Below are positions 1,813 to 14,309 of a stretch of DNA of 32,564 nt, piece by piece (position 1 is the first letter of the stretch; each line of letters begins with the position of its first letter). The DNA comes from Gammaproteobacteria bacterium. Lineage in GTDB: Bacteria > Pseudomonadota > Gammaproteobacteria > JAJPIJ01. A program made the translations under genes and the position numbers. The DNA lies in NCBI GenBank assembly GCA_022071965.1, contig JAJVIQ010000016.1, positions 1-32,564 on the forward strand, given 5' to 3'. The notes below the pieces were generated by a model. The model did no database searches and had not been told where the DNA came from. It saw only the letters and a program-made list of their open reading frames with translations.

Positions 1813-2171
1813 GCGCCCGCCTGTCAGGCGTGGCGATCATGATGACGGCAGGGGGCGAGATGCCTCCTGCCGGGTGTGCCCGGGACCCGGATACCCGGGA
1901 TCTGCAGAGGCGGTCCCCGCGCCGCGGCGCCGCATGTGATCGCGTGGTCTCCGGCCAGTGTCGACGCCTGTATACGCCGTCACACACGCGGCCGCCCTCG
2001 CCGCGGAAGATCATGGCTTGACCATTGCAGGGGTCCGGGGGACAGACTAAGCTAATTCTCACAACTAAGAATCGATGCAAACGGCTTGATCCAGCATCGA
2101 TTCGGCGAACGAACGTCAGCCCTCCCGGCTGTCCGGGGCAGCGGACAGTCCTCAGCCTACGGGACAAGTTT
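1813..2171 (+). promoter_or_regulatory. Non-coding region and structured leader before the cNMP/rhodanese/coiled-coil gene
   Basis: After the pntB hairpin the region is GC-rich and shows no gene. From about 2040 it becomes noticeably more AT-rich. TTGACC at 2018-2023 resembles a -35 box, but no good -10 sits 16-18 bases downstream, so the promoter is not resolved. Two inverted repeats follow. AATCGATGC (2070-2078) pairs perfectly with GCATCGATT (2094-2102) across a 15-base loop. GGCTGTCC (2127-2134) pairs with GGACAGTC (2143-2150), with one G-T wobble, across 8 bases. The second ends 21 bases before the GTG chosen as the start of the next gene. Although the frame is open back to TTG 2025, the composition and structure of this stretch suggest untranslated leader. 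Confidence 0.5.
1847..1871 (+). terminator. GC-rich hairpin downstream of pntB
   Basis: A 10-base-pair stem with a single G-T wobble (GGCAGGGGGC paired with GCCTCCTGCC) closes a 5-base loop 35 bases after the pntB stop. There is no T-tract after it, so it is not a textbook intrinsic terminator. It may act as an mRNA 3'-end stabiliser or a Rho-assisted end. A smaller CGCCT/AGGCG hairpin lies just before it at about 1818-1830. Confidence 0.4.
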
Positions 2172-5165
2172 GTGGACGCAAGCCAGCTAAAAGAGCATTT
2201 TCGCCGCCTGGTTCCCTTCAATCGCCTGCGCGAACCGCAGCAGGAACGCGTACTCGGAAAGGCCGAGGTCGTGGATCTGAGGCCCGGCGAAGAGCTGTTC
2301 CGACAGGGCAGCCATGACTCCTACACCTACTATCTCCTCGACGGATCGCTGGTCCTGAACTCCGACGGCGTGCGTGCCAAGAAGCTCGCGGCCGACAGCG
2401 ACGCCGCGAAATCGCCCCTCGGGCACCTGCAGCCGCGGCGTCTGAGCGCGGTGGCCGAGACCGGCGCCTCCGTGCTGAAGGTCCGCTCGGCCCTGATCGA
2501 ACGGGTGCTCGCGCCCAGACCCGGCGATGCGGAGAACCCGCACGCCTACGACGAGGTCACCGAGGGCGAGGAGACGATGAACCCGGCCCTGATGGCCGCG
2601 GCCCTGAAGCCGGAGCTGTTCGGCAAGCTCCCTCCTGCCCACATGCAACGCCTGTCCAATGTCATGGAATGGGTGAAATACAAGGCGGGCGACAACGTGA
2701 TCCGGCAGGGCGACGTCGGCGACTACTACTACATCATCAAGGAGGGCAGCTGCGAGGTGCGGCGCACGACCTCGGTGAGTACGCACGGCATCAAGCTGGC
2801 GGAGCTCAAGCCCGGGGACGCCTTTGGCGAGGACGCCCTCATCTCCAACATGCGCCGCAACGCCACCGTGCGCATGATCACCGATGGGGAGCTGATCCGC
2901 ATCGGCAAGGACGACTTCAACCAGCTCATCAAGGATCCGCTGCTGAAGTTCGTGACCTTCGAGGCCGCCTCGGAGCGGGTGCGCGACGGCGCGGTGTGGC
3001 TCGACGTGCGCTTCCCGGAGGAGTGCCGCAACGGCGCGCTGCCCGGAAGCATGAACATCCCGCTGAACATGCTGCGCATGTATGCCGGCAAACTCGATAC
3101 CGCGAGGACCTACATCACCTACTGCGATGACGGCAGCCGCAGCTCCGTGGCGGCCTTCATCCTGCGCGAGCGCGGATTCGAGGCGGCGTGCGTGGAGGGC
3201 GGCTGCGGGGCGCAGCTGGCGGCGCTCTACGCGCTGCACGCGCCGGGGTCGGAGAATCCCGACCTCACAGCCACCGTCATCCCGCGTCCGCTGGGGCAGG
3301 GCGAGGTGCAGGACACGGTGCCGATGGAGGAGGAGACGCTGCGCATCCTCGATCACCTCGCCTCGCTGCAACTGTTCTCGAGCGCCGCGGAGAAGGCCGT
3401 GATCCTCGACAAGCCGCACATGCCGATCGGGCCGGATGCCGCCACGCAGGCCGCCAACCAGATCGCGATGCCGATTCTCATGGGCAAGGATCCGACCGCG
3501 ACCAGGCCGCAGTTGCCGCCGTCCATGGAGGCGGACGTCGACGGCGACGCGACCATCGTCAGCTATGAGGAAGCGCCGGTCGAGGAGGAGGCCGCGCCGC
3601 CGGCCGCGGCCGATCCGCTGGCGCTACAGGCCGCGGAGATCCGGTTGCGCGATCTCGAGGCGCAGTTGCGCTACGAACGCGAGAGTGCGGAACGCCTCGG
3701 ACGGGCGTTGCGCGATGCGGAGCTCCTGCTCGCCAGGCAGGCGGAGGCGGCGAGCGCCGGCCCGGCCCCGGCAGCGCGCGCAGAAGACCAGGCCGCCGCG
3801 GAGAGTGAACGCCTGGAGGCGGCACTGGCGGCCGAACGGGAACGTCTGGCGCAGGCCCATCAGCAGGCGATGGCGGGCGCCGTGGCGGCGGAACGGGAGC
3901 GTCTCCTGCAGGCGCACCGGCAGGAGCTGGCGAACGCCGTGGCCGCCGAGCGCGAGCGCCTGGAACGCGCATATCGCGAGCAACTGGCCGTGGAGCGGGA
4001 TCAGGCACAACAGGCGAGCGAGGCGGCGATCAGGGCGGAGCGCGAGCGCCTGGAAGGCGAGCGGCACGCCGGCGCGGCCGCGCTGGAGGAGGAAAACGCC
4101 CGTCTGCAACGGCGGCACGCCGAGGAGTTCGCCGCCGCGCTCGACGCGGAGCGGGCCCGGCTCGATCTGTCGCACCGCGACGAGATCGAGGCGCTGCAGG
4201 CCCGGCTCGACGAGAACATCGTGCTGCTGGAACGCACCGGGGAGCAGGTCCGCAACTATGAGACCGCCCTGCAGCAGAGCAGTGCGGTGTCGGCCGAACG
4301 GGACCAGCTCGAGCAGTCGTACCGCCAGCGCATCGAGGAACTGGAGAAGCTGCTGGCGGCGCAGTCGGAGGCCGAGGAGCTCTTGAGCGCCGATCGCCAG
4401 AAGCTGGCCGGCGAGCTGGCGGAGCAGCGCAGGCTGCTGGAGGAGGCCAAGCGCCAGCTGAAGGAGACGCCTGCGCAGGCCCAGCAGCTCGAGCAGGCGA
4501 CCGAGGGGCAACTGGCGGAGCTGCGCAAGATCCTCGGCGCGGAGTTCGCGCGCAACGCCGCGCTCGTGGAGCTGGCCCGCCAGGAGCGCTCCTCGGCGGA
4601 GGCGGCGCGCAAGCGTCTGGTCGAGCATACCGAGCAGGTGTTCACGGAGTATCGCGGCCGGCACGAGCGCGTGCGCATCCAGGAGGAGGAACGCGTGCGC
4701 GAGGAACGGCGCCTGATGGCGATGGAGCGCAACTTCCTGCGTTCGGCGATGGATGCGGCGAACCGCGTGCGCGAACAGGCCGAGCAGATGATCCGCCAGG
4801 CCGAGGAGCAGGCCACGCGGTTGCGCGCGCTCACCAGCACGCAGATCGACGCCATCGAATCCGAGGCGCGCAACGACATGAAGCGCGTACAGGCCTCCAT
4901 GCCGTGGCTGCGCGAGGACAACAGGGCCGATGCGCTCGCCGAGGCCGAGGCGCGCCTCGGGCAGGAGATCCGCCACCAGGTCGATGACATGCTGACGGCC
5001 AGGGCGCCGGCGCCGGTCGCCTCGGCCAAGATCCTCGAGCTGCAGCGCCAGGACATGGAGCGCATCCAGCGGCGCACCGAGGAAGTGAAGCTCGTCCAGA
5101 GCGGCGGCATGGAGCTGATCCGCGGCGGATTCTCCGATCTGGACGGCTCGCCGGTCGCCGACTAG
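2172..5165 (+). CDS. Two cyclic-nucleotide-binding-like domains + rhodanese + long coiled coil
   Basis: A 997-residue protein (from GTG 2172) of unusual architecture. A first cNMP-binding-like beta roll begins at PGEELFRQG (residue 38) and lacks a recognisable phosphate-binding cassette. A second one (about 160-255) has a near-canonical cassette, FGEDALISNMRRNATV, starting at residue 218, with Glu220 and Arg229 in the ligand-contacting positions. A rhodanese domain (about 262-350) follows with the active loop CDDGSRS, catalytic Cys318. After a Pro/Ala/Glu-rich linker, about 460 residues (480-940) are Ala/Glu/Arg/Gln-rich coiled coil with three tandem 19-residue units. There is no signal peptide or membrane helix, so it should be cytoplasmic. 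cNMP-rhodanese proteins without the coiled coil are known in proteobacteria; I infer that the rod makes this one a scaffold. Start alternatives are TTG 2025 (unlikely, it lies in the leader) or another codon near 2172. Function unknown. Confidence 0.85.
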   Translation: MDASQLKEHFRRLVPFNRLREPQQERVLGKAEVVDLRPGEELFRQGSHDSYTYYLLDGSLVLNSDGVRAKKLAADSDAAKSPLGHLQPRRLSAVAETGASVLKVRSALIERVLAPRPGDAENPHAYDEVTEGEETMNPALMAAALKPELFGKLPPAHMQRLSNVMEWVKYKAGDNVIRQGDVGDYYYIIKEGSCEVRRTTSVSTHGIKLAELKPGDAFGEDALISNMRRNATVRMITDGELIRIGKDDFNQLIKDPLLKFVTFEAASERVRDGAVWLDVRFPEECRNGALPGSMNIPLNMLRMYAGKLDTARTYITYCDDGSRSSVAAFILRERGFEAACVEGGCGAQLAALYALHAPGSENPDLTATVIPRPLGQGEVQDTVPMEEETLRILDHLASLQLFSSAAEKAVILDKPHMPIGPDAATQAANQIAMPILMGKDPTATRPQLPPSMEADVDGDATIVSYEEAPVEEEAAPPAAADPLALQAAEIRLRDLEAQLRYERESAERLGRALRDAELLLARQAEAASAGPAPAARAEDQAAAESERLEAALAAERERLAQAHQQAMAGAVAAERERLLQAHRQELANAVAAERERLERAYREQLAVERDQAQQASEAAIRAERERLEGERHAGAAALEEENARLQRRHAEEFAAALDAERARLDLSHRDEIEALQARLDENIVLLERTGEQVRNYETALQQSSAVSAERDQLEQSYRQRIEELEKLLAAQSEAEELLSADRQKLAGELAEQRRLLEEAKRQLKETPAQAQQLEQATEGQLAELRKILGAEFARNAALVELARQERSSAEAARKRLVEHTEQVFTEYRGRHERVRIQEEERVREERRLMAMERNFLRSAMDAANRVREQAEQMIRQAEEQATRLRALTSTQIDAIESEARNDMKRVQASMPWLREDNRADALAEAEARLGQEIRHQVDDMLTARAPAPVASAKILELQRQDMERIQRRTEEVKLVQSGGMELIRGGFSDLDGSPVAD
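3828..3998 (+). repeat. Three tandem 57-bp units inside the coiled-coil coding region
   Basis: Units at 3828-3884, 3885-3941 and 3942-3998 each encode 19 residues that begin AAERERL. The first two share AERERL.QAH.Q...A.AV; the third diverges after AAERER. Further AERERL elements follow at longer spacing. The unit is coding and stays in phase. It looks like internal growth of the coiled-coil rod rather than a mobile or CRISPR repeat. Confidence 0.8.
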
Positions 5166-14084: not shown

Positions 14085-14101
14085 CCAAGGTGCGACCTTG
14101 G
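14085..14101 (+). promoter_or_regulatory. Leader hairpin overlapping the tRNA-Cys 5' end
   Basis: CCAAGGT (14085-14091) pairs perfectly with ACCTTGG (14095-14101) over a 3-base loop. The last two bases of the hairpin are G1 and G2 of tRNA-Cys. It would therefore compete with the acceptor stem in the precursor until RNase P has cut. Confidence 0.45.
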
Positions 14102-14173
14102 CTGAGTGGCAGAGTGGTCATGCAGCGGCCTGCAAAGCCGTGTACGCCGGTTCGATTCCGACCTCAGCCTCCA
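14100..14173 (+). tRNA. tRNA-Cys (anticodon GCA)
   Basis: A 74-base tRNA with encoded CCA. The acceptor GGCTGAG (14100-14106) pairs with CTCAGCC (14163-14169), discriminator T, then CCA. The anticodon loop CTGCAAA has T33 and anticodon GCA. The D loop retains the GG pair, and the T arm is regular (GCCGGTTCGATTCCGAC). This is the functional cysteine tRNA of the cluster. Confidence 0.95.
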
Positions 14174-14234
14174 TCATCAAAGGCAGATCGGCGGTCGGGA
14201 ACGACGCGCCAGTTCCGTAGAGTTCAGACCCATT

Positions 14235-14309
14235 GGCTGGGTGGCAGAGTGTTCATGCGGCGGCCCGCAAAGCCGCTCAGGCCGCGTTCAAATCCGGCCC
14301 CAGCCTCCA
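14235..14309 (+). pseudogene. Degenerate second tRNA-Cys copy (pseudo-tRNA)
   Basis: A 75-base sequence closely resembles the tRNA-Cys 61 bases upstream, with acceptor GGCTGGG/CCCAGCC, the GCA anticodon and an encoded CCA. Three lesions hit positions needed for function. T33 before the anticodon is C (loop CCGCAAA). The D-loop GG is GT. An extra C in the 5' side of the T stem (CCGCG before TTCAAAT) breaks its pairing with CCGGC. I infer a tandem duplication that is decaying, although charging by the cysteine enzyme has not been excluded. Confidence 0.8.

Follow-up and report, generated by a model that had tools for sequence, protein, structure and literature searches.

A putative cyclic-nucleotide-responsive scaffold with a rhodanese domain and a conserved C-terminal rod module in a gammaproteobacterium

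The stretch of DNA analyzed here (the window: 32,564 nucleotides, contig JAJVIQ010000016.1 of the Gammaproteobacteria bacterium assembly GCA_022071965.1) encodes P0001, a protein of 997 residues in which a head of two cyclic-nucleotide-binding-like (cNMP) domains and a rhodanese domain is followed by a long helical rod. The reading preferred here, held at about even confidence, is that P0001 is a soluble, cyclic-nucleotide-responsive scaffold that assembles via a C-terminal rod module with paralogous rods bearing other heads. For most bacteria the prevailing view is that CRP alone mediates the global action of cAMP (PMC11139211, PMC7247823). The family to which the P0001 head belongs combines intact cNMP-binding and rhodanese signatures with very long rods in many members; should it prove responsive to a cyclic nucleotide, it would be an effector of a second kind, widespread and directed at cell architecture or sulfur chemistry. 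The features of the gene are as follows.

2172 to 5165, plus strand: P0001 gene, class B cNMP-cNMP-rhodanese-rod; complete open frame, 997 aa, GTG start, with a full-length orthologue at L060
2271 to 2510, plus strand: first cNMP-binding-like domain, about aa 34-113; PF00027, E=1.6e-5, under the curated cut-off
2673 to 2933, plus strand: second cNMP-binding domain, aa 168-254; PF00027, E=1.6e-21
2964 to 3206, plus strand: rhodanese domain, aa 265-345; PF00581, E=1e-9 for the protein (Pfam)
3207 to 3614, plus strand: linker, aa 346-481; Pro/Ala/Glu-rich, largely unstructured in the model
3615 to 5123, plus strand: helical rod, aa 482-984; from AlphaFold2 secondary structure, periodicity against shuffles and lack of a transmembrane segment
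4476 to 4838, plus strand: conserved C-terminal rod module, aa 769-889, with an EFARN...EYR motif; by profile, common to class B rods and the pseudokinase-rod
5043 to 5090, plus strand: C-terminal motif QRQDMERIQRRTEEVK, aa 958-973; corresponds to QRaxMERIKxRAqxAR elsewhere in class B, matched by setting class B C-terminal ends side by side

The GTG start agrees with the homologue L061, in which the head starts at a similar position. The domain search proposed with the original prediction finds cNMP_binding twice and one rhodanese, the latter at 265-345 (Pfam), and no whole-protein family scores above cut-off in Pfam or NCBIfam. Two cNMP-binding-like domains, the second with an intact cassette, had been predicted, and the Pfam match is indeed strong for the second and weak for the first. 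The first domain is degenerate, as by column counts the cassette glutamate is absent and a QPR..SA motif stands in its stead. In the second the phosphate-binding cassette is intact (FGEDALISNMRRNATV), with Glu220 at 2829-2831 and Arg229 at 2856-2858. The rhodanese loop reads CDDGSR at 318-323, fitting the six-residue CxxGxR loop, and Cys318 lies at 3123-3125. The originally proposed positions of these three residues are exact, and among 81 family heads Glu220 is kept in 79, Arg229 in 78 and Cys318 in 76. A head-family profile matches P0001 over aa 10-345 with 450 bits; the head is poorly resolved in the structure prediction, with a mean pLDDT of 49.

Beyond the linker, the AlphaFold2 model is helical over 482-984, interrupted only briefly near 529-533, 631-636, 765-769, 909-914 and 944-947; this model was made from a two-row alignment and its pLDDT is modest, mostly 55-75. 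Hydrophobic periodicity over rod residues 487-915 is pronounced, the power at period 3.5 exceeding that of all 300 composition shuffles. The rod is thus long, helical and heptad-like in its hydrophobic periodicity, and on these modeled features P0001 is a coiled-coil protein for which oligomerization is predicted. A coiled-coil rod had been claimed at 460 residues; its presence stands, and its length becomes about 500 residues because of the extent of the assigned helix. A scan of the protein for transmembrane segments detected none, and P0001 was accordingly rejected as a membrane protein.

An independent metagenome-assembled genome of the same genus carries a full-length orthologue of P0001 with 89% identity (locus L060 on JAJVHZ010000093.1, with the same contig coordinates as contig C26 of genome G003). 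Between the two, dN/dS is 0.20 overall and ranges from 0.03 to 0.28 over the segments. It is lowest in the rhodanese domain (0.026, with 89 of 90 residues identical), and stands at 0.11-0.14 in the cNMP domains and 0.20 in the linker; the rod gives 0.28 at its beginning, the module-bearing segment 0.17 and the final 87 residues 0.26. These ratios indicate that purifying selection acts on all segments of P0001. The part of the rod at aa 486-760, which combines low similarity with the dN/dS of 0.28, may be a mere spacer. As the window represents a single contig in a fragmented assembly, the rod could have been a separate gene joined to the head through an assembly or sequencing error. This explanation is refuted, and its probability is close to nil, since L060 carries the same fusion at full length with constraint throughout, and more than 20 homologous head-rod proteins occur in other genera.

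Heads of the P0001 type were found (E<=1e-50) in 152 of 369 sampled Gammaproteobacteria, the one class surveyed, or about 40%. The survey of other genomes suggested with the original prediction resolves three architectures: head only (class A), head plus soluble rod (class B, including P0001), and head plus a longer rod, a transmembrane helix and an FGE-sulfatase-like domain (class C). The 81 distinct heads, purposely chosen to favor long frames so that the counts give no frequency estimate, comprise 18 of class A, 23 of class B (rod with module), 24 of class C (FGE-like) and 16 unassigned or truncated. Class A proteins, of about 355-390 aa, have the three-domain head of P0001 with its conserved residues, and differ from it in having neither rod nor module. 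Class C proteins begin, like P0001, with this head followed by a helical rod, from which point they differ by the longer rod, transmembrane helix and FGE-like domain. The clustering of the three classes on a quick tree is non-random, and its deep nodes are weakly supported. That no described protein with such a rod was known agrees with the open-access literature searched, in which nothing was found on the cNMP-rhodanese architecture (rod present or not) or on the class C proteins, and in which neither an experimental study of the head family nor a characterized homologue turned up. The rod is nevertheless not unique to P0001, as the homologous C-terminal module is found in 22 complete class B proteins, and rods longer still in more than 20 of class C. 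A search of a plasmid collection returned cNMP-domain matches only.

Class C frames are widespread and span 1260-2033 aa (L072, L074-L079, L081, L128-L144). Between the rod and the FGE-like domain, a strong hydrophobic segment is present in all 25 frames scanned, of which one duplicates another in truncated form. FGE requires a cysteine in the active-site stretch that follows the RVVRGG motif. Such a cysteine occurs in none of the scanned frames where the pattern is readable, and the FGE-sulfatase-like domains of this class apparently lack their active-site cysteines. The class B module is absent from class C proteins, or weak in L073 and L071. In the class C protein L073 (9601-14988) a PP2C phosphatase domain lies between the rhodanese domain and the rod, and the match to the class B rod module is a weak 44 bits. 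The neighbors of class C genes (a PfkB-like kinase, a Rieske protein and an HU-like protein) are found repeatedly, but this seems to reflect shared gene order, and they were set aside as a functional clue.

The rod module comprises roughly 120 residues and is homologous among class B rods. A profile built from 11 of these rods scores 80-120 bits on held-out class B rods and 88 bits on the pseudokinase rod described below, against 6.2 bits for the best heptad-preserving shuffle. Because these matches far exceed the shuffles, the module reflects homology rather than common coiled-coil composition. In P0001, which belonged to the training set, it scores 133 bits at aa 769-889; by sequence, with the module present and no transmembrane segment, P0001 is a class B protein. 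The module is present in 18 of the 369 genomes, nearly always in the frame of a cNMP-rhodanese head; it occurs apart from such a head in the pseudokinase-rod genes found in the genus of the window and in two split frames, L124 and L149, both from fragmented assemblies. Its end lies 108-136 residues from the C-terminus in 22 class B proteins, even though the stretch between head and C-terminus in the same proteins ranges from 355 to 944 residues, a 2.7-fold range of rod length. A fixed C-terminal position of this kind is what would be expected of an assembly end.

Five further head relatives are encoded in the window's own genome. Contig C7 carries a cNMP-cNMP-rhodanese-rod protein in a 957-aa frame. 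C2 has two of the relatives, one a head-only protein of 353 aa and the other divergent, in a frame of 577 aa, and C1 and C4 each have one protein with a single cNMP domain and a rhodanese domain. Among the own-genome paralogues L019 (8561-10294), L020 (8140-9483) and L021 (7742-8959), one has a double-cNMP head in which both cassette residues and the rhodanese cysteine are gone, and the active loops are altered in the other two, which have a single cNMP domain and a rhodanese domain. The P0001-type rod segment is also found fused to a degenerate protein kinase in two species of the window's genus.

L022 9303-11819 (G000:C27, own genome): pseudokinase-rod gene, degenerate protein kinase fused to a P0001-type rod segment
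L152 4011-6539 (G003:C50): pseudokinase-rod gene, degenerate protein kinase fused to a P0001-type rod segment

The pseudokinase-rod protein and the P0001 rod are 45% identical over 240 aligned residues (score 422; highest shuffle 139). The module of the pseudokinase-rod is 53% identical to that of P0001, compared with 30-40% for the class B modules set against it. The name pseudokinase is used because, judged by eye, the catalytic lysine (VVIREF) and the HRD aspartate (HGQF) are missing in both species, and the Pfam match is confined to positions 43-122 of a 263-position profile. In five genomes two class B genes lie side by side, divergent in three and tandem in two, and on the quick tree both members of every pair sit in different groups. 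P0001 itself is on a long branch, in a group with the C7 paralogue. Co-assembly in the window's genome is an extrapolation, because no adjacent class B pair was found there and the C7 paralogue has no match in G003.

A mechanism can be proposed in which the second cNMP domain would bind a 3',5'-cyclic nucleotide and the degenerate first domain would pack on it, as in other tandem cNMP regulators. Movement driven by the ligand would pass through the rhodanese domain and linker to the coiled-coil rod, where the C-terminal module would drive dimerization or higher assembly with itself and co-assembly with the own-genome paralogous rods, namely the 957-aa cNMP-rhodanese-rod and pseudokinase-rod proteins. 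The assembly would position the thiol or persulfide chemistry of Cys318 at one of its ends and perhaps gate it, with a possible effect on sulfur transfer. This model draws support from the conservation of Glu220, Arg229 and Cys318 across the 81 heads, from a helical rod with coiled-coil-like periodicity and no transmembrane segment, from purifying selection in all segments, and from a module held at a fixed C-terminal distance despite the varying rod. It is further supported by the presence of the rod segment on a kinase-like domain, by the adjacent class B pairs with members from different tree groups, and by five matches to class III cyclases in the own genome, which indicate that a second-messenger supply is present. 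The original prediction of a soluble scaffold is in keeping with the lack of a transmembrane segment, the long helical rod, the intact cNMP and rhodanese signatures and these cyclases. More tentatively, and with less confidence than the scaffold itself, rods with interchangeable heads (two cNMP-rhodanese subtypes and the pseudokinase) might co-assemble via the one common C-terminal module into a cyclic-nucleotide-controlled hub with a pseudokinase subunit. The common module would directly predict which proteins assemble together, and this prediction is testable.

The scaffold model is weakened by the lack of an evident operon partner of P0001 naming a process, by the low confidence of both structure predictions, on which dimer and head geometry would depend, and by the possible spacer at aa 486-760. 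No sulfur-metabolism gene adjoins P0001, which counts against the main rival, that P0001 is primarily an enzyme, a cNMP-gated sulfurtransferase acting on thiosulfate, persulfide or a protein thiol, with a rod that merely oligomerizes and has no scaffold role. This explanation remains the main rival because of the strong constraint on the rhodanese domain, the most constrained segment of P0001; the catalytic cysteine in nearly all heads and the existence of rod-less, head-only relatives also speak for it. It is nonetheless judged rather unlikely, and leaves unexplained both the fixed C-terminal position of the module and the replacement of the head by a degenerate kinase on the same rod. Somewhat less probable still is a structural or positioning element, a polar or filament-forming coiled coil, in which the rhodanese domain would serve in binding or thiol sensing rather than as an enzyme. 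Very long rods, membrane-anchored too in class C, fit such a role, but a pure binding domain would not need the catalytic loop that is kept nearly everywhere, and the polar protein CbpA falls outside the head family.

CbpA is the nearest characterized analogue of P0001. Endoh and Engel in 2009 reportedly described it as an N-terminal degenerate and a C-terminal functional CAP domain, and by its known behavior it is no transcription factor; P0001 resembles it in its degenerate first and functional-type second cNMP domain. CbpA (PA4704) is a polar cAMP-binding protein of Pseudomonas aeruginosa (PMC7247823, PMC3019171), and the PrrF RNAs lie between PA4704 and PA4705 (PMC6954232). In a Pseudomonadaceae genome (L189) a CbpA-like gene was located immediately upstream of tandem PrrF RNAs, its identification as the PA4704 orthologue resting on synteny. 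It aligns with the family over cNMP domain 2 only (28% identity, E 7.6e-10) and is without the rhodanese domain and rod that P0001 has, and P0001 was therefore rejected as a CbpA orthologue. By analogy P0001 may work somewhat like CbpA, yet it is no CbpA. The best matches among solved structures are the cNMP domains of PKG and PKA (E about 8e-27), eukaryotic regulatory domains that are tandem as in P0001; P0001 has no kinase, and the degenerate kinase-like protein encoded in its own genome is a separate one. In Myxococcus, AglZ and FrzS have an N-terminal signaling domain, receiver-like and so different from the P0001 head, followed by a long coiled-coil rod; P0001 resembles them in joining a signaling head to a long rod. 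A Pycsar effector (PycTIR) was considered and rejected, as it gave a weak cNMP-domain match only and P0001 has no TIR domain (Pfam) and no transmembrane segment. Rhodaneses are also contained in encapsulin family 2 operons (PMC8346489).

Upstream of the gene lies one further conserved feature.

2013 to 2171, plus strand: conserved 5' leader of the P0001 gene, by identity to L060

These 159 bases are 96.9% identical to L060, compared with 72.5% for 1813-2012 and about 89% for the gene, and contain inverted repeats at 2069-2078/2094-2103 and 2129-2134/2143-2148. Consensus scanning found no promoter or terminator at the ends of the P0001 gene, Rfam gave no match for the leader, and the four family genomes hold no second copy of it. 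Its folding is only weakly better than that of shuffles (z -1.65). On the comparison of one species pair, 2013-2171 may be an unrecognized regulatory leader. Elsewhere in the window, two tandem tRNA-Cys(GCA) genes lie at 14100-14309 inside a Gly-Cys-Cys-Leu tRNA cluster.
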